Origin: Nibribacter ruber | GTDB lineage: Bacteria > Bacteroidota > Bacteroidia > Cytophagales > Hymenobacteraceae | Assembly (NCBI RefSeq): GCF_009913235.1 | Contig: NZ_CP047897.1 | Span: 3,595,001-3,659,000 of the forward strand | DNA: 64,000 nt | Direction of reading: 5' to 3' | Shown: in pieces, positions 583-47,156 of the stretch | Position numbering within the stretch: position 1 is the stretch's first letter | Layout: each line of letters starts with the position of its first letter | Program-made: the position numbers and the translations under genes | Notes under the pieces: model-generated | What the model was told of the DNA's origin: nothing | The model's database searches: none | Seen by the model: the letters and a program-made list of their open reading frames with translations, nothing else

Positions 583-620
583 CGTTTTTGGGCTGTTTTC
601 TGAAAAATAGCCCAAAAACG
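583..620. repeat. 38-bp palindromic repeat, copy 1
   Basis: Thirty-eight bases with outer arms CGTTTTTGGGCT and AGCCCAAAAACG, which pair completely; relative to the common form GGCCT/AGGCC both arms have changed together. It lies between the ATPase and yciI-type genes. Confidence 0.93.
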
Positions 621-661
621 TAGAGAACCTGTAGCTTTGCTCCTCCACAAAAGATAGACGT

Positions 662-952
662 ATGTTTTTGATTGAACTCACCTATAAAGTGCCTTTCACT
701 GAAGTGGACCCATTCATGTCTGAGCACATGGCGTTTCTGGAGAAGCACTATGCAAAGGGAACCTTCCTGGCTTCGGGACGCAAGGTTCCACGTGACGGCG
801 GCCTCATTTTTTGCCAGGCTGGCAGCAAGGCAGACGTAGAAGAACTCATGCAGGAAGACCCATTTGTGTACCAGGACCTGGCAGACCTGCGAGTGATAGA
901 GTTCACCGCCTCCCGCGCCGAAGAAGGGTTGAAAGGTCTTTTGCCATCATAG
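662..952 (+). CDS. YciI family protein
   Basis: A 96-residue protein of YCII/YciI-like fold. It opens with a beta strand (MFLIELTYKVP), has the family pattern of a His in the first helix (EHMAFLEKHY), a GxFLASGRK-type loop and the closing motif EDPFVYQDLADLRVIEF, close to the family consensus for the segment before the last strand. Length is typical of stand-alone YciI proteins. Family members are small dimeric proteins related to muconolactone isomerase and dyp-type ferredoxin-like folds, mostly of unproven function. The gene stands alone on the plus strand, facing the minus-strand metal block. Confidence 0.85.
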   Translation: MFLIELTYKVPFTEVDPFMSEHMAFLEKHYAKGTFLASGRKVPRDGGLIFCQAGSKADVEELMQEDPFVYQDLADLRVIEFTASRAEEGLKGLLPS

Positions 953-1071
953 GGAATCTCCCAGCCGTGAGCGAGTACAACCTCTGATTGCGTCTGTTTG
1001 CTGAGGATGGGCGCGATAGAATTTTCAGGAAAAGAAGCACGACTTCCATCCCATTTTTAAAGAGATTATAA

Positions 1072-1111
1072 AACCAGAGAGGCCGCCTGTAAACAGGCGG
1101 CCTCTCTGGTT
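1072..1111 (-). terminator. Intrinsic terminator of the HMA protein gene
   Basis: A 19-bp stem (AACCAGAGAGGCCGCCTGT with its complement) and tiny loop. On the minus strand it is followed by a T-rich tract, so it ends transcription of the small HMA gene; the perfect stem might also stop plus-strand transcripts. Confidence 0.85.
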
Positions 1112-1132
1112 GAACGAATTAAAAAATACTGT

Positions 1133-1345
1133 TTAGTCTTCTATCGTCTCCGCAGAATAACCTGCAGATTCCACGGCCAGAATCACGGCGTCTGACGTGG
1201 CATCGCCTTCTATGGTGAGAACCTTGTCTGGCGAGTTGGTGTCTACCTCCCATTTGTAAATACCGGGCGTCTTGTCCAAAATGGGAGTGACGGTGCTAAT
1301 ACAGCCACCGCATTTAATATTGGTCTTGAATTTCTTAGTACTCAT
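1133..1345 (-). CDS. Small heavy-metal-associated (HMA) domain protein, probable copper chaperone
   Basis: A 70-residue single-domain protein with the metal motif C12-G-G-C15 in the first loop (KCGGCIS) and the beta-alpha-beta-beta-alpha-beta layout of Atx1/CopZ proteins; the last strand and helix AVESAGYSAE are typical. In the family the two Cys bind Cu(I). It differs from the usual MxCxxC in having Lys directly before the first Cys. It sits downstream of copA on the same strand, separated by a 38-bp palindrome, and ends at a strong terminator. A role in handing copper to CopA is inferred from context. Confidence 0.85.
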   Translation of the reverse strand: MSTKKFKTNIKCGGCISTVTPILDKTPGIYKWEVDTNSPDKVLTIEGDATSDAVILAVESAGYSAETIED

Positions 1346-1379
1346 CTTTTTTTAATTAGGAATTAGGTTTTCAATTAAC

Positions 1380-1417
1380 CGTTTTTGCCCTCTTTTACAG
1401 AAAACAAGCCAAAAACG
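1380..1417. repeat. 38-bp palindromic repeat, copy 2
   Basis: Outer arms CGTTTTTG and CAAGCCAAAAACG flank a CA centre; arms are less well paired than in other copies. It lies between the copA stop and the start of the HMA gene. Confidence 0.88.
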
Positions 1418-1425
1418 GGTTAGTG

Positions 1426-1458
1426 TAACAATCAACAATTAGCAATCAACAATCAGTC
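1426..1458. repeat. Low-complexity CAATCAACAATTAG word repeat
   Basis: Degenerate tandem of CAATCAACAATTAG-like words next to the copA stop codon. The same words recur at 16752-16785 next to another minus-strand stop codon. Confidence 0.6.
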
Positions 1459-1463
1459 AGCTA

Positions 1464-3704
1464 TTACAATTTTAACGAACGGAGGCGCAAACTGTTGGTC
1501 ACCACAGAGACTGAGCTCAGGGCCATGGCTGCGCCTGCCAGCATGGGGTCCAGCAAGAAGCCCCAGATAGGGAAGAGCAGTCCGGCCGCCACGGGTATTC
1601 CTATCAGGTTGTAAATAAAGGCCCAGAACAGGTTCTGGTGGATGGTGCGCACGGTGGCTTTGCTCAGTTTGATGGCCTTGGCAATGGCGCTGAGGTCTGA
1701 GTGCATGAGCGTTACTTTGGCTACGTCCATGGCAATGTCTGTGCCGCGGCCCATGGCAATGCCCACGTCTGCCAGCGCCAGCGCCTGCGAGTCGTTGATG
1801 CCGTCACCTACCATGCCTACCACGTGTCCCTGTGCCTGCAGTTCCTGAATGAAATCGGCCTTGTCCTGGGGCATCACCTCGGCTTTGTAGTGTTGCAAGC
1901 CTACCTGCTGGGCCACGGCGGCAGCGGTTTGAGCATTGTCGCCGGTGAGCATGTACACCTGCAAACCAAGCTGTTGCAACTCTTGTATGGCCTCCGCCGA
2001 GGTCTCCTTGATGGCATCTGCAATGGCAATCAAAGCGACTACCTGGCCCTGCGTGCCGGCAAACACCACGGTCTTGGCTTCAGATTTTCGTTTTTGGGCT
2101 GTTTTCTCCAAATCAGAGGAAAAACGAAGGCCGTTCTCCAGCATCAGCTTTTCATTGCCCAGCCAGTACACCTGCCCCTGGTAGGTAGCCTGTACACCTC
2201 GGCCCGTGATGCTCTCAAAACTTTCCAGGACTGCCGGCTGCGTGTTTTGGGCAGTGAGGTGTTTGGAAACGGCATCGGCCAGCGGGTGCTCGCTTTGGTT
2301 TTCCATGGCCAGCACTACCGCCGCTAAATTTGCCTGCGTCCCCGTAGGCACGGCCCATTCCAGTTCTGTTACTTCGGGCTTGCCTTTGGTGATGGTGCCG
2401 GTTTTGTCTAATACAATGGCCGTGAGTTTGTGGGCGGTTTCCAGGCTTTCGGCGTCTTTGATTAGAATACCGTTTTCGGCGCCGCGGCCAACGCCTACCA
2501 TGATGGCGGTGGGCGTAGCCAGACCCAGCGCGCACGGGCAGGCAATAATCAGGACGGTAATTAAGGCCAGTAGGGCGTGGGTTGTGTTGTTGTCTCCGCC
2601 TAAGAAATACCAGGCCGCAAAACTCAGCAAGGCAATGCCAATGACCACCGGCACAAAAATGCCCGCAATCTTGTCGGTGAGCTGCTGTACGGGGGCTTTG
2701 GAGCCTTGGGCTTCCTGCACCATTTTAATGATTTGGGCCAGCAGCGTCTCGGCGCCCACTTTCTCCGCGGTAATCTGCAAACTGCCTTTCTGGTTGATAG
2801 TGCCGGTGAACACCTGGTCGCCGGTGGTTTTCTCCACGGGAATTGGCTCGCCGCTGATCATGCTTTCATCCAGGAAAGAGCTGCCCGTCACTACGCGGCC
2901 GTCTACGGGAATCTTCTCCCCGGGCCTGATGACCAGCACATCGCCTACCAGCACGTCTTCAATGGGAATCTCTGTTTCTACGCCGTTGCGCAGCGCCTTC
3001 ACTGATTTTGGCTGCAGCCCCATTAGTTTCTTAATGGCGCCTGATGTTCTGGACTTGGCTCTTTCTTCCAGCAGCTTGCCCAGCAGAATAAACGCAATAA
3101 TGACCGTGGCGGCCTCATAGTACACGTGCGGCTCCAGGCCTCTCTCCAGAAAGAACTGCGGGTAGATGGTGTTGAAGGCACTGAACAAAAACGCGATGCC
3201 CGTACTCAAGGCCACCAAGGTGTCCATGTTGGCTTGGCCGTGGCGGGCCTGTTTAACGGCGTTCACGTAAAAGCTGCGGCCAAACCAGAAGACCACCGGC
3301 AGCGTGAGCGCCAGCATGATCCAGTTGCCGTAGGGCATGTGGTGAAAGAACATGCCAATCACCGCCACCGGAAAAGAAAGCATCGTCGCCCAGATGGTCT
3401 TGTGCTTAATGCGTTGGTAGGCTTCTTCTTCGCGGGCTTCTTTGGCTTCTTGGGTGGCTTCTTCTTTTTGGATGAGCAGGTCATAGCCTACGTCCTGCAA
3501 GGCCTTCTGCAGCGTGGTAACCGGAGTAGCAGGATCATATTCCACCAGTACGGTTTTATTGGCGAAGTTCACCGCCGCGCTTTCTACCCCGGGCTGCGCT
3601 TTGAGCATGGACTCCACGCTCACGGCACAACCGGCGCAGGTCATGCCCTCTACCGGAAACGTATTCTTAATGGCCTTCTTGGGTGATGTGGTGATGGTAG
3701 CCAT
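1464..3704 (-). CDS. copA: Copper-translocating P-type ATPase
   Basis: A 746-residue P1B-1 ATPase. An N-terminal HMA domain has C23-A-G-C26; the membrane metal motif C389-P-C391 sits in the sixth helix; SGEP is near 284; the phosphorylated aspartate is D433 in DKTGT; the HP motif is at 473-474; GDGIND is at 633-638. It would pump Cu(I) out of the cytoplasm. Length and domain order are normal for a one-HMA CopA. Unusually, codons 527-539, between nucleotide-binding and phosphorylation segments, coincide exactly with a copy of the 38-bp palindrome that repeats through this region. Neighbours (HMA chaperone, Cys-rich copper proteins, HMA-AraC regulator) agree with copper handling. A TACCTTTG promoter element lies 33 bases upstream of the start. 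Confidence 0.96.
2089..2126. repeat. 38-bp palindromic repeat, copy 3, inside copA
   Basis: The first 19 bases match the repeat consensus (GGGCT form) exactly; the right half has diverged but keeps CAG and AAAAACG, giving 32 of 38 identical. Read on the minus strand it encodes CopA residues 527-539. Confidence 0.85.
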
Positions 3705-3736
3705 GGTTTTTCTTTTTTTTATGACAATGAATAAGA

Positions 3737-3744
3737 CAAAGGTA
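3737..3744 (-). promoter_or_regulatory. Candidate copA promoter -7 element
   Basis: TACCTTTG on the minus strand matches the Bacteroidota -7 box TAnnTTTG and lies 33 bases before the copA start. I see no clear TTG about 20 bases upstream, so a regulator may be needed; that is inference. Confidence 0.5.
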
Positions 3745-3797
3745 GCGCCTGGCAGTGCCCCATGCGTTACAGCTTTGTATACAGGTGTTATATAATT

Positions 3798-5025: not shown

Positions 5026-5029
5026 GTAT

Positions 5030-5067
5030 GGTTTTTGGGCTGTTTTCTGGAAAACAGGCCAAAAACG
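5030..5067. repeat. 38-bp palindromic repeat, copy 4
   Basis: Near-consensus copy (first base G instead of C) with TG centre. It ends two bases from the stop codon of the Cys-rich gene and is followed by that gene's terminator. Confidence 0.95.
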
Positions 5068-5068
5068 G

Positions 5069-5449
5069 TTAAGCGGTTTCTGAGTTGCTGGCTGCGGCCA
5101 ACAGTTCGCTTAAGGGATCGGTTTTGGGGATGAGCTCCTGGCAGACTTCCATGCAATGACGGCAGGCTTCGGCGCAGGCCAGGCAGTGGTCATGGGCGTG
5201 GCGTTCACATTCTATGGCGCAGGCCTCGCAGATTTCCACGCACTGCCTGAGCACTAGACGGGCGTGCTCAGAACCCTTGGACAGAAACGAGGCCGACAGC
5301 CGGCAGTAGTCGGCGCAGTCTAAGTCCAGGTGAATACAGCGCGCCATCTTCTTGACTTCCTCCTCCTGCAGACAGGCGGTGGCACAATGGTCGCAGGCCG
5401 CAATACAGGCCAACAGGGCATCAATGGCCGGTTTATACTCGGTACGCAT
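5069..5449 (-). CDS. Four-helix bundle copper-binding protein (DUF326 / Csp-like)
   Basis: A 126-residue cytosolic protein with 16 Cys arranged as CxxxC, CxxC and CxxxxxxC pairs along four helices (for example CIAACDHCATAC and CLACAEACRHCMEVC), plus His-rich HAHDHC. This is the pattern of DUF326 and bacterial copper storage proteins (Csp), in which Cys line the core of the bundle and bind many Cu(I) ions. No signal peptide is visible, as in cytosolic Csp3. A second copy lies at 6768-7097. Copper storage is inferred from family and neighbours. Confidence 0.88.
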   Translation of the reverse strand: MRTEYKPAIDALLACIAACDHCATACLQEEEVKKMARCIHLDLDCADYCRLSASFLSKGSEHARLVLRQCVEICEACAIECERHAHDHCLACAEACRHCMEVCQELIPKTDPLSELLAAASNSETA

Positions 5450-5502: not shown

Positions 5503-5540
5503 CGTTTTTAGGCTGTTTTCTGGGAAAGAGGTCAAAAACG
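5503..5540. repeat. 38-bp palindromic repeat, copy 5
   Basis: CGTTTTTAGGCTGTTTTC then TG and GGAAAGAGGTCAAAAACG-like right arm. It lies 19 bases beyond the CDF stop codon. Confidence 0.92.
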
Positions 5541-5559: not shown

Positions 5560-6489
5560 CTAATGATGTTCTTCGGCTTGCTGGCACTCCTGGGGCATGG
5601 TGCCACGCTCCACTTGTATGGTCACGTGCTGAATCTGGAAACGCTCTTTCAGCTCTGTCCTGATGGTGGCCAACTGCTTGTCTTGGTAGGTTTCTTCTAC
5701 TTCTAAATGCGCCGTGAGGGAATTTTCTGTGCTGCTCATGGCCCAGATGTGCAGGTCATGCACTTGTGAGACGCCCGCTACGCTTTGTAAAAACTCCCGG
5801 ATGGCCGTTACGTCAATTCCCTGCGGAACGGCATCCAGTGACAGGCGTAGAGATTCTTTCAAGAGGCCCCAAGTGCTATAGACTATGATGGCCACAATCA
5901 CCAGACTCATGACGGCATCTACCCAGTACCAACCGGTGTAGCGCATGAGCAAGCCCGCCAGAACCACGCCCAGACTCACCAGAGCATCGGCGGCCATGTG
6001 CAGGTAGGCGCCCTTCACGTTGATGTCATGTTCTTTGTCTCTGAAGAACAGCAGCGCAGTACCCGCGTTGATGGCAATGCCAATGACGGCCACTATTGAA
6101 ATGGCGCCTCCGTTCAAGGCGGGCGCGGTGCCTAAACGGCCAATGGCCTCCCACCCAATGGCGCCCACCGCCACCATGAGCAGAATGGCGTTGAGCAATG
6201 ACACCAGCGTAGTGGTTTTGCCATAGCCATAGGTGAACCGCTCGGTAGGCTTGCGCTCAGAAACTTTTATAGCGAAGTAGGCCAGCAGCAGGCTCACCAC
6301 GTCTGTGAGGTTGTGGCCGGCGTCTGTGAGCAAGGCCAGGGAATTGTAGTACCAGCCGGCGCCGGCTTCTACGGCCACAAAGACCAGGTTCAGGACTATG
6401 CCCCATCCGAAGGCTTTGTTCAGGTTTCCTCCGGTGGGCAGTCCGTGCCCGTGCTGATGGCCTTGCGAGTGTGAATGTGAATGTCCCAT
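5560..6489 (-). CDS. Cation diffusion facilitator (CDF) zinc/cation exporter, CzcD-like
   Basis: A 309-residue antiporter starting at MGHSHSHSQGHQHGHG; upstream in-frame codons exist but run through a palindromic repeat and lack similarity, so the His-rich start is preferred. Six membrane helices are visible, with the metal-site motifs H-N-L-T-D in helix II (LTDAGHNLTDV) and HMAADALVSLG in helix V, followed by a cytoplasmic domain with VHDLHIWAMS, typical of the C-terminal metal-binding fold. Family members exchange cytosolic Zn2+, Cd2+ or Co2+ for protons. It sits between two Cys-rich copper proteins. Confidence 0.93.
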   Translation of the reverse strand: MGHSHSHSQGHQHGHGLPTGGNLNKAFGWGIVLNLVFVAVEAGAGWYYNSLALLTDAGHNLTDVVSLLLAYFAIKVSERKPTERFTYGYGKTTTLVSLLNAILLMVAVGAIGWEAIGRLGTAPALNGGAISIVAVIGIAINAGTALLFFRDKEHDINVKGAYLHMAADALVSLGVVLAGLLMRYTGWYWVDAVMSLVIVAIIVYSTWGLLKESLRLSLDAVPQGIDVTAIREFLQSVAGVSQVHDLHIWAMSSTENSLTAHLEVEETYQDKQLATIRTELKERFQIQHVTIQVERGTMPQECQQAEEHH

Positions 6490-6645: not shown

Positions 6646-6683
6646 CGTTTTTGGGCTGTTTCCTGGGAAAGAGGCCAAAAACG
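6646..6683. repeat. 38-bp palindromic repeat, copy 6
   Basis: CGTTTTTGGGCTGTTTCC, TG, then GGAAAGAGGCCAAAAACG. It lies between the CDF start and the terminator of the second Cys-rich gene. Confidence 0.94.
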
Positions 6684-7943: not shown

Positions 7944-7988
7944 CAGACTCCAGACTCGCAACTCAAAACTCGCGACTAACGAATGATT
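7944..7988. repeat. Low-complexity GACTCGCAACTC tract
   Basis: Words such as CAGACTC, CGCAACTC, AAAACTCGCGACTAAC repeat imperfectly up to the stop codon of the membrane protein at 7988. Confidence 0.5.
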
Positions 7989-8323
7989 CAAGACCCGCGA
8001 CTCTCTGACGGGCTCTTGAAGGTGTTCTGCTTGGGAGCGTTTCTTTTGGGTGCGGCGGCGCGGGTCGTTTTTGGCCTGTTTTTGGAGAATCGGGCAAAAA
8101 CCCAGTTCACGGAGGGCACCAGCACCAGCGCCGTACCCGCCACCAAAATGAAGATAACCGCAAAGGCGTTGAATAACCGCAGAATGAAATCATCTGTGAG
8201 CCCGAACGCATACAGCAGAATGGACATGGCCAGCACCAGACTCAGGAGGCCGGTGATGAGCAAGTCGCGTTTCCAGGGGCGTTCAAATGGATGGCGCTTG
8301 AGGGGTTTTACAGTCTTGGCCAT
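7988..8323 (-). CDS. Small membrane protein of unknown function containing a palindromic-repeat insertion
   Basis: A 111-residue protein with a basic N-terminus and two hydrophobic helices (about 21-42 and 48-72), then a polar basic tail. I do not recognise the family. Residues 74-86 are encoded by a 38-bp palindrome copy, and everything after them (TTRAAAPKRNAPKQ and a Ser-rich end) is low complexity, so the repeat may have overrun the original C-terminus. The start lies three bases after the stop of the thioredoxin-like gene, which suggests co-transcription. Confidence 0.65.
   Translation of the reverse strand: MAKTVKPLKRHPFERPWKRDLLITGLLSLVLAMSILLYAFGLTDDFILRLFNAFAVIFILVAGTALVLVPSVNWVFARFSKNRPKTTRAAAPKRNAPKQNTFKSPSESRGS
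8066..8103. repeat. 38-bp palindromic repeat, copy 7, inside a membrane protein gene
   Basis: CGTTTTTGGCCTGTTTTT then GG and a right arm ending GGGCAAAAACCC, diverged from consensus. On the minus strand it encodes residues 74-86 of the overlapping small membrane protein. Confidence 0.85.
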
Positions 8324-9049: not shown

Positions 9050-9079
9050 AAAAGACCCGAAATTGATTTCGGGTCTTTT
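9050..9079 (-). terminator. Intrinsic terminator after the disordered protein, fused to repeat copy 8
   Basis: Stem AAAAGACCCGAAAT/ATTTCGGGTCTTTT with a two-base loop. Its right arm occupies the place of the left arm of a 38-bp palindrome. Confidence 0.8.
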
Positions 9080-9100
9080 CTGGAAAACAGGCCAAAAACG
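9063..9100. repeat. 38-bp palindromic repeat, copy 8 (left half replaced)
   Basis: The right 25 bases (TTTTC, TG, GAAAACAGGCCAAAAACG) are perfect consensus; the left outer arm is replaced by the stem of the neighbouring terminator, in register with a 38-base unit. Confidence 0.8.
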
Positions 9101-9120: not shown

Positions 9121-9678
9121 TTATTCTTTTTCGTTGCCCAGGTTCTCACTGCTTTTGTGGCCTTTCAAGGTGCTGGCGTTGGGCTGGTTGTTTCTGAACT
9201 CTTTGTCTGAGCTGTCTGCGCCGCGGGTGCTGGTCCAGTTGGCGTTAGAGCCTTGCGGGCTTTTGGCTTCTGGGTCCATCTTGCCTTGCTTGGCACCGCC
9301 GCTTTTCCCTTCTCTGGACGGCACGTTCTCGCCGCGGGTATTGTCAGCGCCGCCGGCTACCGGTCCATCCTTAAACTTTGGAGCGTTTTTGCTGTCCAGG
9401 GTGCTGTCATTGCTGCGGTTGTTGGGTCTGCCGCTCACGCCTGCGCCCATGTTGGTATTCTGGTTCTGGTTGTTGTCAGCGTTTTGGTGGCTGGTGCCGT
9501 CTGCGTGTTGCTGGCTGTAGGTGCTGGCGTTGTGTGAGGAGCCCTTGTTCTCTGGGTTATTGTTATGGCGGTTGCTGTTGTTCTGGCCGGCATTCTGGTC
9601 TTGTGCCCGCTCGTTCTGCCAGCTATTGTCTTGGGTTGGTCTGTTTTGCTTCGGGCTATTATTTCCACTTCCTTTCAT
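9121..9678 (-). CDS. Intrinsically disordered Asn/Gln/Ser/Gly-rich protein
   Basis: A 185-residue hydrophilic protein with almost no hydrophobic residues, no Cys and no signal peptide. The first half is rich in Asn, Gln, Ser and His, the second in Lys, Asp, Glu and Gly. No domain is recognisable. Similar compositions occur in desiccation or general stress proteins, but nothing in the sequence proves such a role. It ends at a terminator and is transcribed away from a small lipoprotein gene across a 256-base shared upstream region. Confidence 0.7.
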   Translation of the reverse strand: MKGSGNNSPKQNRPTQDNSWQNERAQDQNAGQNNSNRHNNNPENKGSSHNASTYSQQHADGTSHQNADNNQNQNTNMGAGVSGRPNNRSNDSTLDSKNAPKFKDGPVAGGADNTRGENVPSREGKSGGAKQGKMDPEAKSPQGSNANWTSTRGADSSDKEFRNNQPNASTLKGHKSSENLGNEKE

Positions 9679-9934
9679 GATTCTATCTCCTTAACTAAAG
9701 TAAAACATCTAATACATATGCACTTGGCCTGCGGCCGATGCACTGTATCTGATACGAGTCCGTAGGGCATTTAGGTTAACTGGGCGGCAAGTTCAAGGCA
9801 GGATGCTGTGGAATTATAGGAATTGCAACAGATCCCGGGGCGGTTAACTCAAAACCTGCTGCGCGCGTACTATCTCTTTAAAGCGGCTAGCGTTCTTAGC
9901 CTGGCCCAACCATGAAAACCCTGAACCAACCACT
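9679..9934. promoter_or_regulatory. Shared upstream region of divergent genes
   Basis: This 256-base gap separates the disordered-protein gene from a lipoprotein gene. It contains the 11-base palindrome GTATCTGATAC (9745-9755), a possible operator, and a short hairpin GGCTA/TAGCC near 9888-9904. No clear TAnnTTTG box was found on either strand. Confidence 0.35.
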
Positions 9935-10300: not shown

Positions 10301-10343
10301 AACGAAGAAGCCTGCCCCGTCTGGAGCAGGCTTCTTCGTTTTT
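10301..10343 (+). terminator. Intrinsic terminator whose T tract is the start of repeat copy 9
   Basis: A 13-bp stem CGAAGAAGCCTGC/GCAGGCTTCTTCG followed by TTTTT. The closing CG and the T run are also the first seven bases of a 38-bp palindrome. Confidence 0.85.
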
Positions 10344-10374
10344 GGCCTGTTTTCTGAGAAATAGCCTAAAAACG
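10337..10374. repeat. 38-bp palindromic repeat, copy 9
   Basis: CGTTTTTGGCCTGTTTTC, TG, then a right arm ending ATAGCCTAAAAACG. It ends next to the stop codon of the beta-propeller lipoprotein and begins inside the terminator of the preceding gene. Confidence 0.95.
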
Positions 10375-10375: not shown

Positions 10376-11395
10376 CTACCGGAAAGTAAAGCCGTTGGGC
10401 AATACTCTCACCTGGAACGAGTCAATCCTGGCCCCCGTGGTCTGATAGCGTACCACCCAGCCGTTGGTGGTATACCCGCCTACGCCTAAGTACAGAGTGT
10501 TGGTAGCCGGGTCAAGGCCCAGGCCGTAGGGGCTACGGCTGATGAGGGGCATGGTAGGGGCGGCCGTGGCTGTGATGGGCATGGTATACACTTTGCCATC
10601 GGCTGAGTAGTAGAGCGTTTTCTTATCGGCGCTGGTGGTAATTAGTCCAGAACCGGGTATAGCATAAGAAGTAACTGCATTTCCATTGGCTGGGTCAATC
10701 TTCACCAGGGCGCCTGGCTCATCATAGCCGCCGCGTATCACCCAGATTTTGTTGTTGGCATCTACAACCAGGTGGCTAGGACCGGTGCCCACTTCAATAT
10801 TGGTCTCCAGTTCATCATTGGTGGTGTTGATGACAGAAACAGTATTGCTGCCGCTGTTGGCCACGTAGAGTTTGCCGTTCAACAGCACAATGCCTTCTGG
10901 TAGGGCATCTACGCCAATGGACTTGGTCACGGTATTCTTGGTGAGGTCCAGCACAGACACGCGGCCGTTCACGCCATAGTCTACATACTCGGTCACGTAG
11001 GCCTTGGTGTTGTTGAGGGCCACCATGTACCGGGGGATGGAAAGGTCTTTGATGACGCCGGTAGAGGCGAAGGTGCGGGCGTCTACCACTTCAATCTTCT
11101 TGCTGTTATTAAGGGCAATGTAGGCTTTGTCTCCAATAAAAGTCATGGACTGGGCAGCGTCTCCCAGCGGACGGCTGTTTACCTGGTTGAACAGTTCCGG
11201 AATGACCGTCTGGCCGTCGCGGGAGATAAAGCTTACTTCTGCGTTCACGCTCATGAACTGGCCTTCATTGGTGACAAAGACCCCGTCGCTGAAAGGAGAA
11301 GTGTCTTCTTTATCATTGTCACAAGAAGTGGTGAACAGCAGGCCGCTGGCCAGAGACAGGTACAGAAACCGTTTTTTAAGGGAGAATAGATTCAT
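10376..11395 (-). CDS. YncE/YVTN-type beta-propeller lipoprotein, partner of BtuB
   Basis: A 339-residue surface or periplasmic lipoprotein. The chosen start, MNLFSLKKRF, gives a signal peptide with lipobox FTTSC near residue 25; upstream in-frame codons overlap the btuB end. The mature part has repeated blades with the signature motifs of YVTN/NHL propellers (KLYVANSGSNTVSVINT, IWVIRGG, TLYLGVGGY). In Bacteroidota such lipoproteins are frequently encoded beside BtuB-type receptors in B12 loci. The gene follows btuB by 25 bases and is probably in the same riboswitch-controlled transcript. Confidence 0.85.
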   Translation of the reverse strand: MNLFSLKKRFLYLSLASGLLFTTSCDNDKEDTSPFSDGVFVTNEGQFMSVNAEVSFISRDGQTVIPELFNQVNSRPLGDAAQSMTFIGDKAYIALNNSKKIEVVDARTFASTGVIKDLSIPRYMVALNNTKAYVTEYVDYGVNGRVSVLDLTKNTVTKSIGVDALPEGIVLLNGKLYVANSGSNTVSVINTTNDELETNIEVGTGPSHLVVDANNKIWVIRGGYDEPGALVKIDPANGNAVTSYAIPGSGLITTSADKKTLYYSADGKVYTMPITATAAPTMPLISRSPYGLGLDPATNTLYLGVGGYTTNGWVVRYQTTGARIDSFQVRVLPNGFTFR

Positions 11396-13358: not shown

Positions 13359-13477
13359 ACCCTCGGCTTTATAAAGCAGAGGAGACCAATGGGAAGGTAT
13401 AATCACGAAAACGCCAGCCCACGCGGGGCCACCATCCTTGCTGCTTTTTTTCCCGAAAGCCTCCAGGTGAATTGTGG

Positions 13478-13655
13478 ATGTTGGCAGGTCTCCTGGCTCT
13501 CTTCGGCTGGCCGGCCTTCCCATCTGGCAGAGCAGACAGTGGCGTGCGGTGGGCAGCTTGTAATGGAAGATAACAGTTGCGGGAACAGCTCAGGTTTTAC
13601 ACCTGATTCCCTTTTAAGACATTCTCAGCGGAAGCCGAGTCTGTCACCAAAATCT
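13478..13655 (-). promoter_or_regulatory. Cobalamin (B12) riboswitch
   Basis: On the minus strand the leader of btuB carries the conserved cobalamin aptamer pieces in order: AAAAGGGAAT, GGTGTAAAACC, CCCGCAACTGTT (13572-13583 region), GGGAAGG and the B12 box AGCCAGGAGACCTGCC (13483-13498). An extra hairpin CTCGGC/GCTGAG lies at the 5' end. Binding of adenosyl- or hydroxocobalamin would be expected to repress btuB and the lipoprotein. Confidence 0.93.
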
Positions 13656-13659
13656 TGGG

Positions 13660-13667
13660 CAAAGGTA
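13660..13667 (-). promoter_or_regulatory. Candidate promoter -7 element for the B12 operon
   Basis: TACCTTTG on the minus strand lies just 5' of the riboswitch, the expected place for the btuB promoter; the upstream TTG box is weak. Confidence 0.55.
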
Positions 13668-13718: not shown

Positions 13719-13756
13719 CATTTTTGGCTTCTTTTCCAGAAAAGAGGCCAAAAACG
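13719..13756. repeat. 38-bp palindromic repeat, copy 10
   Basis: CATTTTTGGCTTCTTTTC, CA, GAAAAGAGGCCAAAAACG. Here the centre is CA rather than TG, so the unit may be inverted. It ends 7 bases from the stop codon at 13764. Confidence 0.93.
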
Positions 13757-13763: not shown

Positions 13764-14084
13764 TCAGTGAAAGAAGAATATGGAGGTTCCTGCCAAGGCG
13801 CAAACCATAAAGAGTAGTGCCGCTTTTACAGTGATATCTATGGCCTGCGTCTTTCTGGCATCCTGAAAGACAAGTATCATGAAGTTAAACGCCCCTAGAA
13901 GCGCTGCAAAAATCAGAGACAGGAAAACGAATCCCACAAAACGCAGAAAGAACGCTTGAGGCAGATTCTTTACCAATTCATCATAGCCTTCTTTACTGCC
14001 CATGTAGAAAACGGCAGAGAAAAACAGCAGGAACAGACTACCTAGTGACAGCGCAAATATGTTTAGTAGGTGTAGTGGTTTCAC
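13764..14084 (-). CDS. Small membrane protein, unknown function
   Basis: A 106-residue protein with three clear hydrophobic helices (about 7-28, 45-75 and 86-104). No family is recognised. The start is five bases after the stop of the secreted protein gene at 14090, so the two are probably co-transcribed. A role in the envelope is the most that can be inferred. Confidence 0.65.
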   Translation of the reverse strand: MKPLHLLNIFALSLGSLFLLFFSAVFYMGSKEGYDELVKNLPQAFFLRFVGFVFLSLIFAALLGAFNFMILVFQDARKTQAIDITVKAALLFMVCALAGTSIFFFH

Positions 14085-14620: not shown

Positions 14621-14658
14621 CGTTTTTAGCCTGTTTTACCAGAAACAGGCCAAAAACG
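14621..14658. repeat. 38-bp palindromic repeat, copy 11
   Basis: CGTTTTTAGCCTGTTTTA, CC, AGAAACAGGCCAAAAACG. This copy lies between divergent genes, that is upstream of both, unlike most others. Confidence 0.93.
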
Positions 14659-14755: not shown

Positions 14756-15418
14756 ATGAAACGCTTTTTTACGCTTTTTGCCCTTTCGGCGTGCCTGGTC
14801 TTTACAAGTCAGGCGCAGACCATTTCCAAGGTAGACTTCACCAAAATCAATGCGGCCATTGCCTCGCCCAAGTCCAAGTTCTACTACCCCAACCTGCTCA
14901 AGCGCTACATGGCCAATGATGCCACGCTCACCACAGAGGAGTATTCGCACCTGTACTATGGTTACCCCAAACAGCCAGGCTACAGGCCATGGGCCGTTAA
15001 TGAAAAGGAGGATGAACTAGGGCAGATGATGTTGTATGAGAACTTCCCGGAAATCATCACCACCGGTGCTAAACTGTTGCAGAAAGATCCGTTTAACCTA
15101 AGCGTGATTTACCTCATGCACATGGCCACCGGAGAACTCAACAGAGCCGCTGAAAGCAAGAAATGGCTGGCAAAGTTTGACGGTCTGCTGGCCGCCATCA
15201 AGGCTAGCGGCAACGGGCGCTCCCCAGAAACTGCCGTGGTGTTGGTTACTCCCCGGGACGAGTACATGTTTTTGAACGCCGCCGCCCAGCTTCGGCAGGA
15301 TGGGCCAGTACAGGTGGTGGACAAAAAGTATGACTTGGTGAAACTAAAAGTCCCTAACAAGCTCAACTTAACGCAGGTGTACTTCAATATTGAGAAGGCA
15401 CTGGCTGTTAAGAAATAA
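14756..15418 (+). CDS. DUF4919 domain secreted protein
   Basis: A 220-residue protein. The start MKRFFTLFALSACLVFTSQAQ gives a signal peptide, so it is preferred over an upstream codon at 14720. The mature segment KFYYPNLLKRYMANDATLTTEEYSHLYYGYPKQPGY matches the pattern of Bacteroidota DUF4919 proteins, which are exported and of unknown function. A weak promoter-like TGTATTTG lies about 35 bases upstream. A palindrome copy follows 22 bases after the stop. Confidence 0.78.
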   Translation: MKRFFTLFALSACLVFTSQAQTISKVDFTKINAAIASPKSKFYYPNLLKRYMANDATLTTEEYSHLYYGYPKQPGYRPWAVNEKEDELGQMMLYENFPEIITTGAKLLQKDPFNLSVIYLMHMATGELNRAAESKKWLAKFDGLLAAIKASGNGRSPETAVVLVTPRDEYMFLNAAAQLRQDGPVQVVDKKYDLVKLKVPNKLNLTQVYFNIEKALAVKK

Positions 15419-15440: not shown

Positions 15441-15478
15441 CGTTTTCGGGCTACTTTGCAGAAAGTAGCCCGAAAACG
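15441..15478. repeat. 38-bp palindromic repeat, copy 12 (perfectly compensated variant)
   Basis: CGTTTTCGGGCTACTTT and AAAGTAGCCCGAAAACG pair over 17 bp although several positions in each arm differ from consensus. This is the clearest sign that pairing itself is maintained. It lies between the DUF4919 stop and the glycosylase start. Confidence 0.93.
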
Positions 15479-18139: not shown

Positions 18140-18841
18140 ATGAAAAAATGGATGAAATTTAGTCTTTTGGCTGTGCTGCCTGCCGTGTTTCTGACCACCG
18201 CCTGCGACGATGACGACGAAGATTCTCCCATGGTGGAGCAGAAAGCCAACGTCATGGTCGTGCACGCAGCCCCTAACGCTCCTACCGTAGACCTGTTTGT
18301 AGACGGAACCAAAGTGAACAGCACGGCCCTGGCGTATCCTAGAAACACGGGTTATTTGCAGGTAGCTGCTGGTTCCAGAAATGTAAAAGTAGCTCCCTCT
18401 GGTGCTGGTGCCGCCAACGCCGTGATTGATGCCAACCTCAACCTGACCGCCAACACCAACTATTCAGTTTTTGCCGCCGGTCCGCTAACCGCCCTTACGG
18501 CCGTGGTGGTAGAAGACAACCTCACTGCGCCGGCTGCGGGCAGAGCGCACGTACGCTTCATTCATTTGTCACCAGATGCGCCTAACGTAGACGTAGTGGT
18601 GCAGGGTACCACCAGCAACTTGTTCTCCAACATCCAATACAAGGGTTCTACTGCCTTCAAGCCGGTGAACGCTGGTACGTACACTTTGCTTGTTCAACCC
18701 GTGGGTACAGATGTGAATGCCGTGACTGCCAATGTGACTCTGCAGGCTGGTAAGATCTACACCGTTTTTGCCAAAGGCTTCCTGAATCCGCCGGCGGGTA
18801 ACAATAATTCTTTGGGTGCTGAAGTGATCATGAACAACTAA
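18140..18841 (+). CDS. DUF4397 domain lipoprotein
   Basis: A 233-residue protein with signal peptide and lipobox LTTAC (lipidated Cys near 22) followed by an acidic run DDDDED typical of Bacteroidota surface-exported lipoproteins. Two repeats of a beta-rich domain follow, each starting with a motif like VHAAPNAPTVDLFVDG and IHLSPDAPNVDVVVQG, the mark of DUF4397. Family members are secreted or surface proteins of unknown function. It has its own terminator and is monocistronic. Confidence 0.87.
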   Translation: MKKWMKFSLLAVLPAVFLTTACDDDDEDSPMVEQKANVMVVHAAPNAPTVDLFVDGTKVNSTALAYPRNTGYLQVAAGSRNVKVAPSGAGAANAVIDANLNLTANTNYSVFAAGPLTALTAVVVEDNLTAPAAGRAHVRFIHLSPDAPNVDVVVQGTTSNLFSNIQYKGSTAFKPVNAGTYTLLVQPVGTDVNAVTANVTLQAGKIYTVFAKGFLNPPAGNNNSLGAEVIMNN

Positions 18842-18870: not shown

Positions 18871-18904
18871 AAAAGCCCGCCGTGACCGCGGGCTTTTAGT
18901 TTTT
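18871..18904 (+). terminator. Intrinsic terminator after the DUF4397 gene
   Basis: Stem AAAAGCCCGC/GCGGGCTTTT, then AGTTTTT, in which the T run belongs to repeat copy 13. Confidence 0.85.
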
Positions 18905-18935
18905 AGCCAGTTTTGGTCAAAATAGGCTAAAAACG
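18898..18935. repeat. 38-bp palindromic repeat, copy 13
   Basis: AGTTTTTAGCC and GGCTAAAAACG arms: the usual G-C pair next to the T run is replaced by A-T in both arms, a compensated change. Its first bases merge with the preceding terminator. Confidence 0.9.
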
Positions 18936-20340: not shown

Positions 20341-20378
20341 CGTTTTCGGGCTAATTCCCGGAAAATAAGCCAAAAACG
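20341..20378. repeat. 38-bp palindromic repeat, copy 14
   Basis: CGTTTTCGGGCTAATTCC, CG, GAAAATAAGCCAAAAACG. It begins six bases after the ahcY stop codon, and its AAAAACG end forms the left arm of the ahcY terminator. Confidence 0.9.
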
Positions 20379-20550: not shown

Positions 20551-20811
20551 CTGTCATCCTGAAAGGATCTTGTGGGCGAACCAGACAGGCTTATGCTAAA
20601 TGCGTTGCTTCCGTTTTTGGCCTCTTTTCTGGAAAACAGCTCAAAAACGCTTTCTTCATTGTCCTGCTTAAAGCTTGGTGCTAAATGTGGGGCAAGCCTA
20701 TCAACTTGCTCTAAGGCTACCTACTAGTTGCTGCTGCGCTCAAACTTGCGGGAGAGAGTATTATTTACCACCGCTATCACAGCTGACCCACAAAATCCTT
20801 TCAGGATGACA
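20551..20811. mobile_element. Possible MITE-like element bounded by 25-base inverted repeats
   Basis: The left arm TGTCATCCTGAAAGGATCTT... (20552-20576) and the right arm (20787-20811) are reverse complements except for one base. They enclose about 210 bases without a gene, including palindrome copy 15. No transposase is present and no target duplication is obvious, so this may equally be a pair of dispersed repeats in opposite orientation. Confidence 0.45.
20612..20649. repeat. 38-bp palindromic repeat, copy 15
   Basis: CGTTTTTGGCCTCTTTTC, TG, GAAAACAGCTCAAAAACG. It lies inside the inverted-repeat pair and is not next to a stop codon. Confidence 0.93.
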
Positions 20812-25389: not shown

Positions 25390-25423
25390 AAAAAGGGCGC
25401 TCTTTATAAAGAGCGCCCTTTTT
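25390..25423. terminator. Bidirectional intrinsic terminator between convergent genes
   Basis: Stem AAAAAGGGCGCTCTTT/AAAGAGCGCCCTTTTT works in both directions. Its last bases join repeat copy 16. Confidence 0.92.
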
Positions 25424-25460
25424 GTTTTTGGCGTGTTTTGGCCAAAAGAGGCCAAAAACG
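25423..25460. repeat. 38-bp palindromic repeat, copy 16
   Basis: TGTTTTTGGCGTGTTTTG, GC, CAAAAGAGGCCAAAAACG. It lies nine bases from the frr stop codon and abuts the bidirectional terminator. Confidence 0.93.
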
Positions 25461-26883: not shown

Positions 26884-26921
26884 TGTTTTTGGGCTATTTT
26901 CTGGAAAAGAGGCTAAAAACG
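26884..26921. repeat. 38-bp palindromic repeat, copy 17
   Basis: TGTTTTTGGGCTATTTTC, TG, GAAAAGAGGCTAAAAACG. It lies four bases from the stop codon of the biotin carrier gene. Confidence 0.94.
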
Positions 26922-26925: not shown

Positions 26926-27420
26926 TTAGAAAAGAACCAGCACCTGATTTTTCTCCACGTTCTGCTTCACGTTCACCTTCACCTGGCTCACCACGCCGTC
27001 GCCGGGAGATTTGATGATGTTCTCCATTTTCATGGCTTCCAGAATGAGGATGGGGTCGCCTTTCTTCACTTCCTGGCCCACCTGTACTTTAATATCCAGG
27101 ATGAGGCCGGGCATAGGCGCTTTAATGTCATTGATCTTCTGCACCAGGGCCTGGTCCATGCCCAGGCTCGCCAACAAAAGATCCATGCGGTCCTGCACCT
27201 GCAAGGTGTGCACGGTGCCGTTGATTTTGATCCGGAAGGTTTTGGTGTCTGCCTCTACGTCTAAAAGCTCAGCGGTATAAGACTTGCCGTCTTTTAGAAT
27301 ATGAAAGGAAGTAGGACTGAGCGGGAGTATATCCCAGGTAAAAGGAGTGTTGTTGAGTAAGATCTGATTTTTCTCTAAGACAACTTGCCACGTGTTGGTG
27401 GCGGATTTTACCTGCAGCAT
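26926..27420 (-). CDS. Biotin carboxyl carrier protein (acyl-CoA carboxylase subunit)
   Basis: A 164-residue protein whose C-terminal 75 residues form a biotinyl domain: APMPGLILDIKVQVGQEVKKGDPILILEAMKMENIIKSP, with the biotinylated Lys in EAMKM. The first half is a beta-rich segment seen in carrier subunits of propionyl-/acyl-CoA or oxaloacetate-type carboxylases. It carries CO2 between carboxylase and transferase partners that are not encoded nearby, so the exact complex is unknown. Its 5' end is divergent from the M1 peptidase gene. Confidence 0.88.
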   Translation of the reverse strand: MLQVKSATNTWQVVLEKNQILLNNTPFTWDILPLSPTSFHILKDGKSYTAELLDVEADTKTFRIKINGTVHTLQVQDRMDLLLASLGMDQALVQKINDIKAPMPGLILDIKVQVGQEVKKGDPILILEAMKMENIIKSPGDGVVSQVKVNVKQNVEKNQVLVLF

Positions 27421-38883: not shown

Positions 38884-38890
38884 TGTGATA

Positions 38891-38928
38891 CAGTTTTGAG
38901 GAGATTTCAGAAAAAGAGGCCAAAAACG
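38891..38928. repeat. 38-bp palindromic repeat, copy 18 (degenerate, rpoB-rpoC spacer)
   Basis: The right arm AAAGAGGCCAAAAACG is intact while the left is diverged (CAGTTTTGAGGAG). It starts seven bases after the rpoB stop. Confidence 0.75.
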
Positions 38929-38948
38929 GCTCTTTCTGAAGTCTCCTT
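38898..38948 (+). promoter_or_regulatory. Large hairpin between rpoB and rpoC
   Basis: AGGAGATTTCAGAAAAAGAG and its near complement CTCTTTCTGAAGTCTCCT can form a stem of about 18 pairs closed by GCC/GGC around AAAAAC. Half of it comes from repeat copy 18. No T run follows, so it is more likely an RNA processing or stability element than a terminator. Confidence 0.6.
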
Positions 38949-39007
38949 AACTCACATGAATAGCCTTAAGAACAAAAAGGAGTTTTACATATCTAGCAAC
39001 ACATAAC

Positions 39008-43324: not shown

Positions 43325-43325
43325 G

Positions 43326-43640: not shown

Positions 43641-43666
43641 GCCATTAATAATAAGTGAATTAAAAC

Positions 43667-43698: not shown

Positions 43699-43743
43699 CA
43701 GACCATTTTTTGAAGAGAGAAATCAGTATAAAAAAGTTAGTAA

Positions 43744-44163
43744 ATGCCTACTATACAACAATTAGTAAGAAAGGGAAGAGAGAAACTAACATCTAAGTCT
43801 AAATCCCCAGCCCTTGACTCATGCCCGCAGAGACGTGGCGTGTGCACGCGCGTTTACACAACCACACCTAAGAAGCCGAACTCAGCGATGAGAAAAGTGG
43901 CTCGTGTGCGTTTGACAAACGGCAAAGAAGTCAATGCTTATATCCCAGGTGAAGGCCACAACCTACAGGAGCACTCTATTGTGTTAATTAGAGGTGGTCG
44001 TGTGAAAGACTTACCAGGTGTAAGATATCACATCATCCGTGGTGCTTTGGATACAGCTGGTGTAAACGGTCGTCTACAGTCTCGTTCTAAATATGGAGCG
44101 AAGCGTCCTAAACCAGGTCAACCAGCGGCAGCAGCAGCAGGTAAAGGCGGTAAGAAAAAATAA
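43744..44163 (+). CDS. rpsL: Ribosomal protein uS12
   Basis: A 139-residue decoding-centre protein. Both streptomycin-sensitivity lysines are present in TPKKPNSA and [13 protein letters not shown], so the gene looks wild type. The C-terminal tail is Ala/Gly/Lys rich and about 15 residues longer than in E. coli. First gene of the str operon. Confidence 0.97.
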
Positions 44164-44177
44164 TAAGGATTTAGATA

Positions 44178-44645
44178 ATGAGAAAAGCGAAACCAAAGAA
44201 GAGAATTCTTCTTCCTGATCCTAAGTACAAAGAGACTCTTGTTACCCGTTTTGTAAACTACCTGATGGTAGACGGTAAAAAGAGTGTGGCTTATAAAATA
44301 TTTTACGATGCTTGCGACTTAGTTGAGAAAAGAACTAAGGAGAACGGTCTAGAGACCTGGAGAAAAGCATTGAACAATATCATGCCAGGTGTAGAGGTGA
44401 AAAGCCGCCGTGTAGGTGGTGCTACTTTCCAGGTGCCTACTGAAGTGCGTCCGGATAGAAAGATTTCTCTTGGTATCAAATGGATGATTTCTTACGCTCG
44501 TAAGAGAGGTGAGAAAACAATGATGGATAAATTGGCTGGTGAGATCATCGCCGCCGCCAAAGGAGAAGGTGCTGCTGTGAAGAAGAAAGACGACACTCAC
44601 AGAATGGCGGAAGCCAACAAGGCATTCTCACACTTTAGATTCTAA
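44178..44645 (+). CDS. rpsG: Ribosomal protein uS7
   Basis: A 155-residue protein that nucleates the 30S head. It has the conserved start MRKAKPKKR, VARFVNxLMxDGKKS-type segment ([23 protein letters not shown]) and [22 protein letters not shown]. fusA begins three bases after the stop. Confidence 0.97.
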
Positions 44646-44648
44646 TTA

Positions 44649-46748
44649 ATGGCTCGGGATTTAAGATTCACAAGAAATATTGGTATTGCCGCGCACATTG
44701 ATGCAGGTAAGACCACGACTACAGAGCGTATCCTTTACTATGCAGGTGTAAGCCACAAAATAGGAGAGGTGCATGATGGAGCCGCCACCATGGACTGGAT
44801 GGAGCAGGAGCAGGAAAGAGGTATCACTATCACCTCTGCCGCTACTACTGTAAACTGGGATTATAGAGGCGAAAAATATCATATCAACATCATTGATACA
44901 CCAGGTCACGTTGACTTTACTGTTGAAGTAAACCGCTCCCTTCGTGTATTGGATGGTTTAGTATTCTTGTTTAGTGCAGTAGATGGTGTTGAGCCACAAT
45001 CTGAAACTAACTGGAGACTTGCCGATAACTATAAAGTTGCCCGTATTGGTTTTGTTAACAAAATGGACCGTTCTGGCGCTGACTTTTTAGGGGTTTGTAA
45101 GCAGGTAAAAGAAATGCTAGGTAGCAATGCCGTAGCGTTACAATTGCCAATAGGTGCTGAAGACAACTTCAAAGGAGTAGTAGACCTGGTTAACTTCCGT
45201 GGTATTGAGTGGAATGAATCTGATAAAGGTATGACCTTTACTGAGGTTCCAATTCCAGAAGATATGATGGAAGAAGCGGAAGAATACAGAGAGAAATTGT
45301 TGGAAGCAGTAGCTGATTACGATGAGGCTTTGATGGAGAAATACTTTGAAGATCCAGCGTCTATCACAGAGGCTGAAATCATTGAAGCTCTTCGGAAAGC
45401 AACCATTGACATGGCGATTGTGCCAATGCTATGTGGTTCTTCTTTCAAAAACAAAGGTGTACAAACAATGCTTGACTATGTGATGGCTTTAATTCCATCA
45501 CCTCTTGATAAGGATAACATTGTTGGTACCAACCCAGATACAGGAGAAGAAGTAGTGCGCAGACCTAGCGAAAGCGATCCATTCGCTGGCTTGGCTTTCA
45601 AAATCGCTACTGACCCTTATGTAGGACGTCTTTGTTTCGTACGCGCCTATTCAGGAGTACTGGAGTCAGGATCTTACGTATACAATACTCGTTCAAATAA
45701 CAAAGAACGTATCTCCCGTATCTTCCAGATGCACGCTAACAAGCAGAACCAAATTGAAAGATTGGCTGCAGGAGACATTGGAGCGGTAGTTGGTTTCAAA
45801 GACATCAAAACAGGAGATACACTTTGCGACCAAAGCGCGAAAATCGTTTTGGAATCAATGGACTTCCCAGAGCCAGTAATCGGATACGCTATTGAGCCTA
45901 AAACTCAGGCTGACTCTGATAAAATGGGTATGGCGATTGCCAAGCTTATTGAAGAAGATCCAACCCTACAGGTAAACACTGACGAGGAAACTGGTCAGAC
46001 TATCTTGAGAGGTATGGGTGAACTTCACTTGGAGATCATAATTGACCGCATGAAGCGCGAGTTCAAGGTTGAGTTGAACCAAGGAGCACCACAGGTGGCT
46101 TACAAAGAAACTATCACTAAGATGGTTGAGCACAGAGAAGTGTTCAAAAAGCAATCTGGTGGTCGTGGTAAGTTCGCCGACATTGTATTCAACATGGGAC
46201 CACGTGAGGATGGCAAGCAAGGTCTTGAATTTGATAATGCAATTGTGGGTGGTGTGATTCCAAGAGAATTCATCCCTGCTGTGCAGAAAGGATTTGAAGA
46301 GGCCATGAAGAATGGTATCTTGGCCGGCTTCCCAATTGACTCAATGAAAGTGCGTTTGTTCCACGGATCATTCCACGATGTTGACTCTGACTCATTGTCA
46401 TTTGAATTGGCAGCCCGTCAAGGATTTAGAGAAGCTGGAAAGCAGTGTGCTCCAAAATTACTCGAGCCAATCATGGCAGTAGACGTGGTTACTCCTGATG
46501 AGTACACTGGTCCGGTAACAGGTGACTTGAACAGAAGAAGAGGTATCATGAAAGGTATGGATACCAAAGGAACTTCAACGGTAGTAAAAGCTGACGTTCC
46601 TCTTTCTGAATTGTTCGGTTACGTGACTGACTTACGTACCATTACTTCTGGCCGTGCAACAGCTTCGCTTACTTTCTCTCATTATGAGCAAGTACCGCAA
46701 AACTTGGCAGATGGTATCATCGCAAAATTAAAAGGAACAGCTAAATAA
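44649..46748 (+). CDS. fusA: Elongation factor G
   Basis: A 699-residue translocation GTPase. The P loop is [18 protein letters not shown]2/G3 are [11 protein letters not shown] and DTPGHVDFT, and G4 is NKMDR. Five domains are complete, with [26 protein letters not shown] near the end. It also helps RRF recycle ribosomes. Co-transcribed with rpsG and rpsJ. Confidence 0.98.
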
Positions 46749-46759
46749 GTTGAAATAGA

Positions 46760-47065
46760 ATGAATCAAAAGATCAGAATTAAGCTGAAATCTTACGATCA
46801 TAATCTGGTGGATAAGTCATCAGAGAAAATCGTGAAAGCGGTGAAAGCGACTGGCGCGATCGTGAGTGGTCCCATTCCTTTGCCAACTGAGAAAGACATT
46901 TTCACAGTATTGCGTTCTCCACACGTAAACAAGAAAGCGCGTGAGCAATTCCAACTTTGCACCTACAAGAGACTAGTAGATATCTATTCTACATCTTCTA
47001 AAACGGTAGATGCTTTGATGAAATTAGAATTGCCAAGCGGTGTTGATGTTGAAATCAAAGTTTGA
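46760..47065 (+). CDS. rpsJ: Ribosomal protein uS10
   Basis: A 101-residue protein with [42 protein letters not shown] and a normal C-terminus. It follows fusA by 11 bases and is the last gene before a terminator, so here S10 belongs to the str transcript, while rplC has its own promoter. Confidence 0.97.
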
Positions 47066-47081
47066 TAATACTATTTCCATT

Positions 47082-47114
47082 AAAAAGGGAGAGGGATAAC
47101 CTCTCCCTTTTTTT
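47082..47114 (+). terminator. Intrinsic terminator after rpsJ
   Basis: AAAAAGGGAGAGG/CCTCTCCCTTTTT with a five-base loop and a T run; a 38-bp palindrome starts five bases later. Confidence 0.9.
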
Positions 47115-47118
47115 ATAC

Positions 47119-47156
47119 CGTTTTTGGTCAGTTTTCTAGAAAAGAAGCCAAAAACG
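47119..47156. repeat. 38-bp palindromic repeat, copy 19
   Basis: CGTTTTTGGTCAGTTTTC, TA, GAAAAGAAGCCAAAAACG. It marks the end of the str operon, between terminator and the S10-spc promoter region. Confidence 0.92.

Follow-up and report, generated by a model that had tools for sequence, protein, structure and literature searches.

A family of 38-bp two-fold symmetric sites in Rufibacter genomes, frequent at gene ends and possibly recognised by a DNA-binding protein

Many palindromic sites for one protein, spread along the chromosome, make up nucleoid arrays of the Noc or SlmA type. Other iterated motifs of bacteria invite comparison with the element treated here, a 38-bp two-fold symmetric site present 19 times in a 64,000-nt stretch of contig NZ_CP047897.1 of Nibribacter ruber (the window, to which coordinates refer unless another locus is named). 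Repetitive extragenic palindromic (REP) elements are characterized in PMC3733652 as short (20–40 bp), palindromic, extragenic and of high copy. The DNA uptake sequence (DUS) of Neisseria is presented in PMC2397512 as a high-copy motif conserved in place and located in permissive regions, dialects of uptake sequences are described in PMC3630211, and the account of HIP1 of cyanobacteria in PMC4390886 is that of a highly iterated 8-bp palindrome of debated function tied to DNA methyltransferases. The present family shares with REP elements (GTAG/CGTC families) and their REP-associated tyrosine transposases (RAYTs) that it is short, palindromic, extragenic and of high copy, but it is devoid of an unpaired tag, a covarying hairpin or a sign of mobility, and its positions are common to a genus. 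With DUS and the uptake signal sequence (USS) of Haemophilus it has in common high copy number, conservation in place, permissive regions and dialects, whereas its sites are symmetric, 38 bp long and hug stop codons. It is a highly iterated palindrome like HIP1, yet 38 bp long, with about 90% of its sites (314 of 351) between genes, and it differs from Noc and SlmA arrays in its approximately 1,780 sites, even along the chromosome and often at gene ends. The closest kinds are the selectively kept, highly iterated motifs (uptake sequences, HIP1), from which length, symmetry and gene-end placement set the family apart. No description of the repeat was found in the literature (one library searched).

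The reading that we favour, at a probability of roughly 0.6, is that the 38-mers would be recognition sites of an abundant two-fold symmetric DNA-binding protein specific to Rufibacter, having arisen in place, being kept by purifying selection and serving a boundary role. Dense bacterial palindromes are usually filed as REP-like mobile DNA or as terminators, and this family argues otherwise: nearly independent half-sites, shared positions and an in-gene origin without insertion argue for a genome-wide network of protein sites that arose in one genus. If true, it would provide an accessible system for studying boundary or insulator function, or uptake bias, and would show how a single protein can remodel sites by the thousand and even alter protein sequences.

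All 19 copies that a previous sequence-only reading had listed as palindromes of exactly 38 bases without gaps are found at their coordinates (27–36 of 38 letters identical to its consensus). Their two-fold symmetry is real but imperfect, 18–34 of the 38 letters being self-complementary. A rescan at 24 or more matches returned the same 19 and one weak extra site at 21257 (24/38). The reported split of 17 copies against two within the window is correct, and probably reflects the scarce intergenic space of the ribosomal and rpoBC operons. The own genome (G000), a single contig of 4,352,178 bp, was sampled in 41 segments amounting to 858,501 bp including the window; genes were called with a codon-usage caller of our own (83% coding), and gene contexts are approximate. 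With a refined matrix and a cut-off of at least 18 bits, 351 copies were counted in the sample and none in one first-order Markov shuffle, that is, one site per 2.45 kb, from which the total of about 1,780 per genome is extrapolated. The density is even along the chromosome (2.0–6.5 per 10 kb in the sampled segments) and the length is strict, with 350 of 360 copies of at least 24 bits measuring exactly 38 bp and the other 10 measuring 37 or 39–41 bp. An exclusion from the terminus, suggested by an apparent lack of near-perfect copies between 1.32 and 3.01 Mb, was discarded once sampling there gave an even density with near-perfect copies present.

The search of the genome and its relatives for the 38-mer, proposed by the sequence-only reading, gave 351 copies in the own sample and led to the same family in Rufibacter. 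In these counts the own genome is included in the genus Rufibacter (family Hymenobacteraceae), within which the record named Sabulibacter ruber also falls. A core pattern with at most two mismatches occurs in 16 of 16 Rufibacter genomes, in one of 21 from other genera of the family (at one place) and in none of 22 from the rest of the order; of 390 genomes examined across the order, seven contain a longer pattern with at most one mismatch, and each of these is a Rufibacter. As far as the genomes searched show, the family occurs in this genus alone. Matrices trained for each species, on the same sequence that was then scanned, detect 3.4–8.5 sites per 10 kb in 12 of 12 sampled Rufibacter genomes (five of them sampled by one 21-kb locus) and none in shuffles. 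The consensus differs by species (C at position 13 and A at 14 in G013, for example), and the T tracts remain among the most conserved positions.

Outside the genus, the own matrix found no match in sixteen Pontibacter loci, four Hymenobacter loci or the other loci scanned, and a survey of gapped palindromic words, covering the Pontibacter loci and 400 kb of G017, brought up no family of this kind. Re-training from the own matrix drifted to motifs of low information, which were not counted as family: 111 matches in Pontibacter, where the shuffle gave 14, and 5 in Hymenobacter, 4 in Botryobacter and 9 in Spirosoma, with shuffles at 0 for these three genera. The Pontibacter loci show a mild excess of evenly centred palindromes (13.6–14.2 against 6.9–7.5 per 100 kb at odd spacings, gaps 0–6), where the commonest word, TTGTTTA-N18-TAAACAA, is one orthologous 32-bp palindrome in nine loci and not a repeat family, placed just before the query methyltransferase gene near 9,700–9,930 (L057–L063, L065, L077). 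One good copy, an exact match, lies on a 39-kb IMG/VR viral contig (L212:1274–1311) and is closest to the G001 and G006 matrices.

Comparison with a sister genome (G007, about 85% nucleotide identity) covered 96 sites in nine segments, 74 of them alignable. A sister site was present within 3 bp of the same aligned place for 63 of these 74; the 11 remaining comprise one copy shorter by 1 bp, one site 26 bp off and others in gapped or poorly aligned DNA, and none of the 11 corresponds to a clean 38-bp gap in the alignment. The positions are shared more widely: in 11 other species, where the own gene has a site no more than 160 bp behind its stop, 92 of 112 orthologs have one as well, compared with 32 of 384 for own genes that lack such a site. 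For the gene at 10376–11395, the site lies 1–3 bp from the stop in 10 of 10 other genomes with the ortholog, two of which have an extra copy at 79 or 106 bp, and behind ahcY it is placed 6–7 bp past the stop in 10 of 11 other species. In the own genome the T tracts are near-invariant (98–99% at positions 4–6 and 15–16). In 55 ungapped sister pairs the divergence is 0.00, 0.00 and 0.01 at positions 4–6 and 0.01 and 0.02 at 15–16, rising to 0.38 at position 8 and 0.43 at positions 13 and 19, with 0.36 in the flanks; as a detectable site was needed in both species, these values are slightly biased to conserved positions, the 12-bit cut-off being far below the typical score of about 50. The pattern suggests that purifying selection holds the key bases while the free positions drift like the flanks.

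A closer view of the origin of the sites is offered by copies inside genes, four of the 18 clear cases having been compared (in an IcmF-like, a HisC-like and a copA-like gene and in that of a 1,249-residue protein; Table 1). Each of the four sites keeps its codon position in all 16 Rufibacter genomes, and the best of seven species matrices gives at least 18 bits in 63 of the 64 cases and 16.1 in the last, while none of 29 cases from other genera reaches 12 bits at these codon positions; for the copA-like site alone the numbers are 16 of 16 Rufibacter genomes at 18 bits or more and none of eight genomes of other genera. If only the own matrix is applied, scores are low for several Rufibacter cases (the lowest −4.4), which the consensus shifts between species would lead one to expect. 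The number of codons equals that of the other genera of the family in the IcmF-like (3/3), HisC-like (6/6) and copA-like (8/8) genes and the residues differ, which indicates that in these three genes the site was written by point substitution; two of five more distant genomes differ in length in the IcmF-like gene. The fourth gene aligns poorly with other genera, and a one-codon difference is seen in most of its orthologs within Rufibacter. The IcmF-like site occupies a permissive stretch, none of 289 other 13-codon windows being as variable in amino acids, and its synonymous conservation lacks significance, being equalled or exceeded in 63 of 289 windows. The IcmF-like protein itself is encoded by one frame in most relatives and by two frames in G006 and G001 (L205/L206). 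We give even odds to the broader proposition that in the ancestor of the genus a symmetric DNA-binding protein acquired some 1,800 sites by point mutation, one in roughly every second intergenic gap and some within conserved enzymes, whose amino acids changed to accommodate them, and that these sites form a boundary-element or uptake network whose consensus would have drifted from species to species without the sites moving.

With respect to genes, gaps between codirectional genes hold 201 of the 351 sites, convergent gaps 72 and divergent gaps 41; another 25 fall within called genes, and 12 are at the edges of segments. Among gaps of at least 38 bp, a site is carried by 63 of 95 convergent, 182 of 364 codirectional and 40 of 105 divergent ones, and two sites by 29 of the 564. 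Stop distances of 0–19 bp were measured for 107 of 345 sites. In convergent gaps 31 of 66 sites lie within 12 bp of a stop (14.1 expected by random placement) and in codirectional gaps 49 of 189 (15.7 expected, or 29.7 if the 100 bp before the next start are barred), six of 72 and 12 of 201 sites, respectively, having been dropped because of overlap or little free space. Where codirectional gaps leave at least 150 bp free, 22 of 123 sites are within 12 bp of the stop and two within 12 bp of the start; in divergent gaps, the comparison with random placement shows no hugging of starts. The placement at gene ends is beyond chance. The sequence-only reading had put most copies 1–25 bases beyond a stop codon, which applies to 10 of the 19 in the window, two of these relative to weak open reading frames (ORFs). 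Enrichment near stops, uniform length and presence at the same positions in relatives, the reverse of which that reading had named as counting against it, are all observed in the larger sample. Selection for even spacing beyond one site per gap was considered and rejected. Nor is it clear that long gaps tend to be filled by sites within genes (median 3,842 against 3,348 bp for the 14 of 18 that were testable).

This placement raises the possibility of an RNA hairpin at the 3' end, a terminator or a block to decay, selected at the RNA level. It would explain the proximity to gene ends, the sites that abut terminators or form their loops, and a small pairing excess in the own genome. However, the Watson-Crick frequency of each of the 18 arm pairs is within 0.04 of independence (351 own sites), with 0.794 observed and 0.789 expected overall (352 sites); covariation of the arms in 12 genomes gives z values from −1.5 to 2.3, in G009 only 50% of the arm cells pair, and double changes between the sisters number 53 against 45.3 expected. 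The T tract precedes the stem instead of following it, and a GC hairpin with a U tract is not the conserved unit. Because the arms hardly covary, an RNA hairpin is not mainly what is conserved, and the strict 38-bp length and the sites inside genes and in divergent gaps argue further against it; these sites and the weak one between rpoB and rpoC also speak against a plain terminator. Terminators are found at 61 of 101 and 60 of 132 ends with a site (49 and 36 with the site masked) and at 38 of 80 and 42 of 125 ends without one; behind ahcY the site stands between stop and terminator in nine of 15 Rufibacter sequences (those read in gene direction that show both), and the G013 sequence has no site there. 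We regard the hairpin as very unlikely, and of the functional 3'-end element suggested by the sequence-only reading the proximity to gene ends, the uniform length and the shared positions survive, but hardly a conserved RNA structure. The same reading had offered a site-specific, non-autonomous REP/RAYT-like element, and a related possibility is an ancient burst of a REP- or MITE-like element (miniature inverted-repeat transposable element) in the ancestor of the genus, now immobile and co-opted as a binding site. The sudden abundance in one genus, the frequency of Y1-type genes in the order (33 of 39 genomes) and the sites that centre longer palindromes agree with such a burst. Against mobility stand the absence of any excess of target-site duplications at the sites, of an unpaired tag of the GTAG or CGTC type (the own consensus is symmetric, reading CGTTTTT from either end) and, for all of the 11 partnerless sites, of a clean gap in the sister alignment, as well as the positions shared across species and the equal codon counts at three in-gene sites. 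A look for the transposase gave three Y1_Tnp matches in the own genome and none in the copy-rich G007. The non-autonomous element is not supported by these results, and an ancient burst is hardly probable. A reading as transposon ends was also rejected, as lone half-sites are rare (18 matches against two in the shuffle, six of them being both halves of three 39–41 bp variants). For 13 of 32 close site pairs the intervening DNA was inspected by eye and seemed unrelated. Downstream of one Y1_Tnp (RAYT-like) frame (L029:17096–18447; G000 1861595–1862946) two atypical copies occur within 1.2 kb, the one at 1862348 being fitted 15.4 bits better by the G013 matrix than by the own matrix, perhaps as DNA acquired from another species with a foreign dialect.

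A DNA uptake sequence or a similar drive motif shares many features with the family. A receptor preferring DNA that bears the site, together with transformation and recombination, would spread and maintain it in permissive DNA, with species dialects, in keeping with about one site per 2.4 kb, the high copy number with origin and retention in place, the shifts of consensus and the permissive IcmF-like stretch; conservation in place and permissive location have a parallel in the account of DUS given in PMC2397512. The 10-nt DUS of that account is unlike a strict 38-bp palindrome in which both halves are needed and which strongly hugs stops. In a crude test, DNA without an alignment to the sister holds 13 sites over 29.6 kb, a density no lower than elsewhere (4.38 against 4.39 per 10 kb), although 24.6 of the 29.6 kb may lie beyond the fetched sister region. 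An uptake motif is, on balance, unlikely.

The favoured protein-site reading accounts for the conserved unit in the following way. Position-specific constraint, fixed spacing and independent half-sites are all found, and the near-invariant TTT at 4–6 and TT at 15–16 with drifting free positions and nearly independent arms are the signature of a symmetric protein-binding site. The own-genome half-site is CGTTTTTRGSYTNTTTYC, with a CA/TG (pyrimidine-purine) step at the dyad; its T tracts have their centres near positions 5 and 15.5, a helical turn from each other. Fixed spacing, near-independent halves, contacts separated by a helical turn and such a step are what a symmetric DNA-binding protein would be expected to select. 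The putative binder could be a dimer, or a tetramer with two contacts per half. Its sites would have arisen by point substitution in the ancestor of the genus, as shown for three coding genes and presumed for the rest, after which the key bases would have been held and the free ones would have drifted, each species' consensus shifting slightly. In this way about half of the intergenic gaps of at least 38 bp would have received one site and a few of them two, frequently just past a stop and beside rather than instead of intrinsic terminators. From the position of the sites, the bound protein may mark the boundaries of transcription units, as a boundary or nucleoid-organising factor that might, for example, block read-through in both directions or insulate supercoils.

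Several observations weigh against this protein-site reading. No binder was found, HU-HIG (PF18291) being neither expanded nor specific in Rufibacter, and a scan of 10 of the 21 genes behind double-site gaps yielded no DNA-binding family. The pairing excess mentioned above is small, the mean fold energy in the own genome (−13.18, against −12.68 for re-paired halves) lying beyond 30 of 30 shuffles and Watson-Crick plus GT pairs giving a z of 2.7. Preceding terminators end −2 to +3 bp from a site in 24 of 48 cases, and the flanks prolong the palindrome by at least five pairs at 43 of 346 sites (3.5 expected), some of these being loops of U-tailed hairpins, which indicates that termination is entangled with the sites. 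A pure gene-end role fits poorly with the 41 of 351 sites in gaps called divergent, the 18 clear in-gene sites and the rpoB-rpoC site, present in seven of seven blocks. Finally, the spacing of the sites is no more regular than expected from one per gap (coefficient of variation 0.84 against 0.81).

Table 1. Sites of the 38-bp family in the window and compared sites inside genes (G007 is the sister genome)
Feature	Position	Strand	Context and comparison
38-bp site	583..620	.	113 bp past stop at 469 (+); 34/38 to consensus; unalignable in sister region
38-bp site	1380..1417	.	46 bp past copA-like stop (1464-3704, -); aligned place in G007 without site; G013 site at 30 bp
38-bp site, in gene	2089..2126	.	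Within copA-like coding sequence; 32/38 in G007
38-bp site	5030..5067	.	1 bp past stop of weak ORF 5069-5449 (-)
38-bp site	5503..5540	.	19 bp past stop of CDF transporter gene, 3' end at 5560 (-)
38-bp site	6646..6683	.	In gap called divergent
38-bp site	8066..8103	.	Overlaps called ORF 7988-8323 (-); 35/38 in G007
38-bp site, left half degenerate	9063..9100	.	20 bp past stop of 9121-9678 (-); G007 site offset by 1 bp; site at 22-35 bp in 9/10 other species with ortholog
38-bp site	10337..10374	.	Convergent gap, 1 bp from stop of 10376-11395 (-); after a terminator-like hairpin
38-bp site	13719..13756	.	Upstream of cobalamin riboswitch; 7 bp from stop of weak ORF 13764-14003 (-)
38-bp site	14621..14658	.	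Divergent gap; aligned place in G007 without match
38-bp site	15441..15478	.	Most perfect palindrome of the window (34/38); 22 bp past stop at 15418
38-bp site	18898..18935	.	56 bp past stop of 18140-18841 (+)
38-bp site	20341..20378	.	6 bp past ahcY stop, ahead of canonical terminator
Second 38-bp site	20612..20649	.	Between ahcY and convergent glycosyltransferase gene; flank unalignable (28%) in G007
38-bp site	25423..25460	.	Convergent gap, 9 bp past frr stop; 4-8 bp past frr stop in 10/10 other species with ortholog
38-bp site	26884..26921	.	4 bp past stop of 26926-27420 (-); site at 6-9 bp in 10/10 other species with ortholog
Weak 38-bp site	38891..38928	.	Between rpoB and rpoC, 7 bp past rpoB stop; 38/38 in G007; site at 3-7 bp in 6/6 other blocks
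38-bp site	47119..47156	.	53 bp past stop of 46760-47065 (+)
In-gene site	L024 7795		IcmF-like gene
In-gene site	L023 6792		HisC-like gene
In-gene site	L008 12512		Gene of 1,249-residue protein

No Rfam family was detected at the 38-bp sites of the window. The cobalamin riboswitch at 13466–13666 (−) precedes a gene for a TonB-dependent receptor, for which the B12 receptor is the best NCBIfam match, below its cut-off, and the 38-bp site is placed about 50 bp further upstream. In the gap between rpoB and rpoC (38884–39007), a longer inverted repeat (GGAGATTTCAG ... CTGGAATCTCC-like) overlaps the weak site, and similar letters are present in seven Rufibacter blocks.

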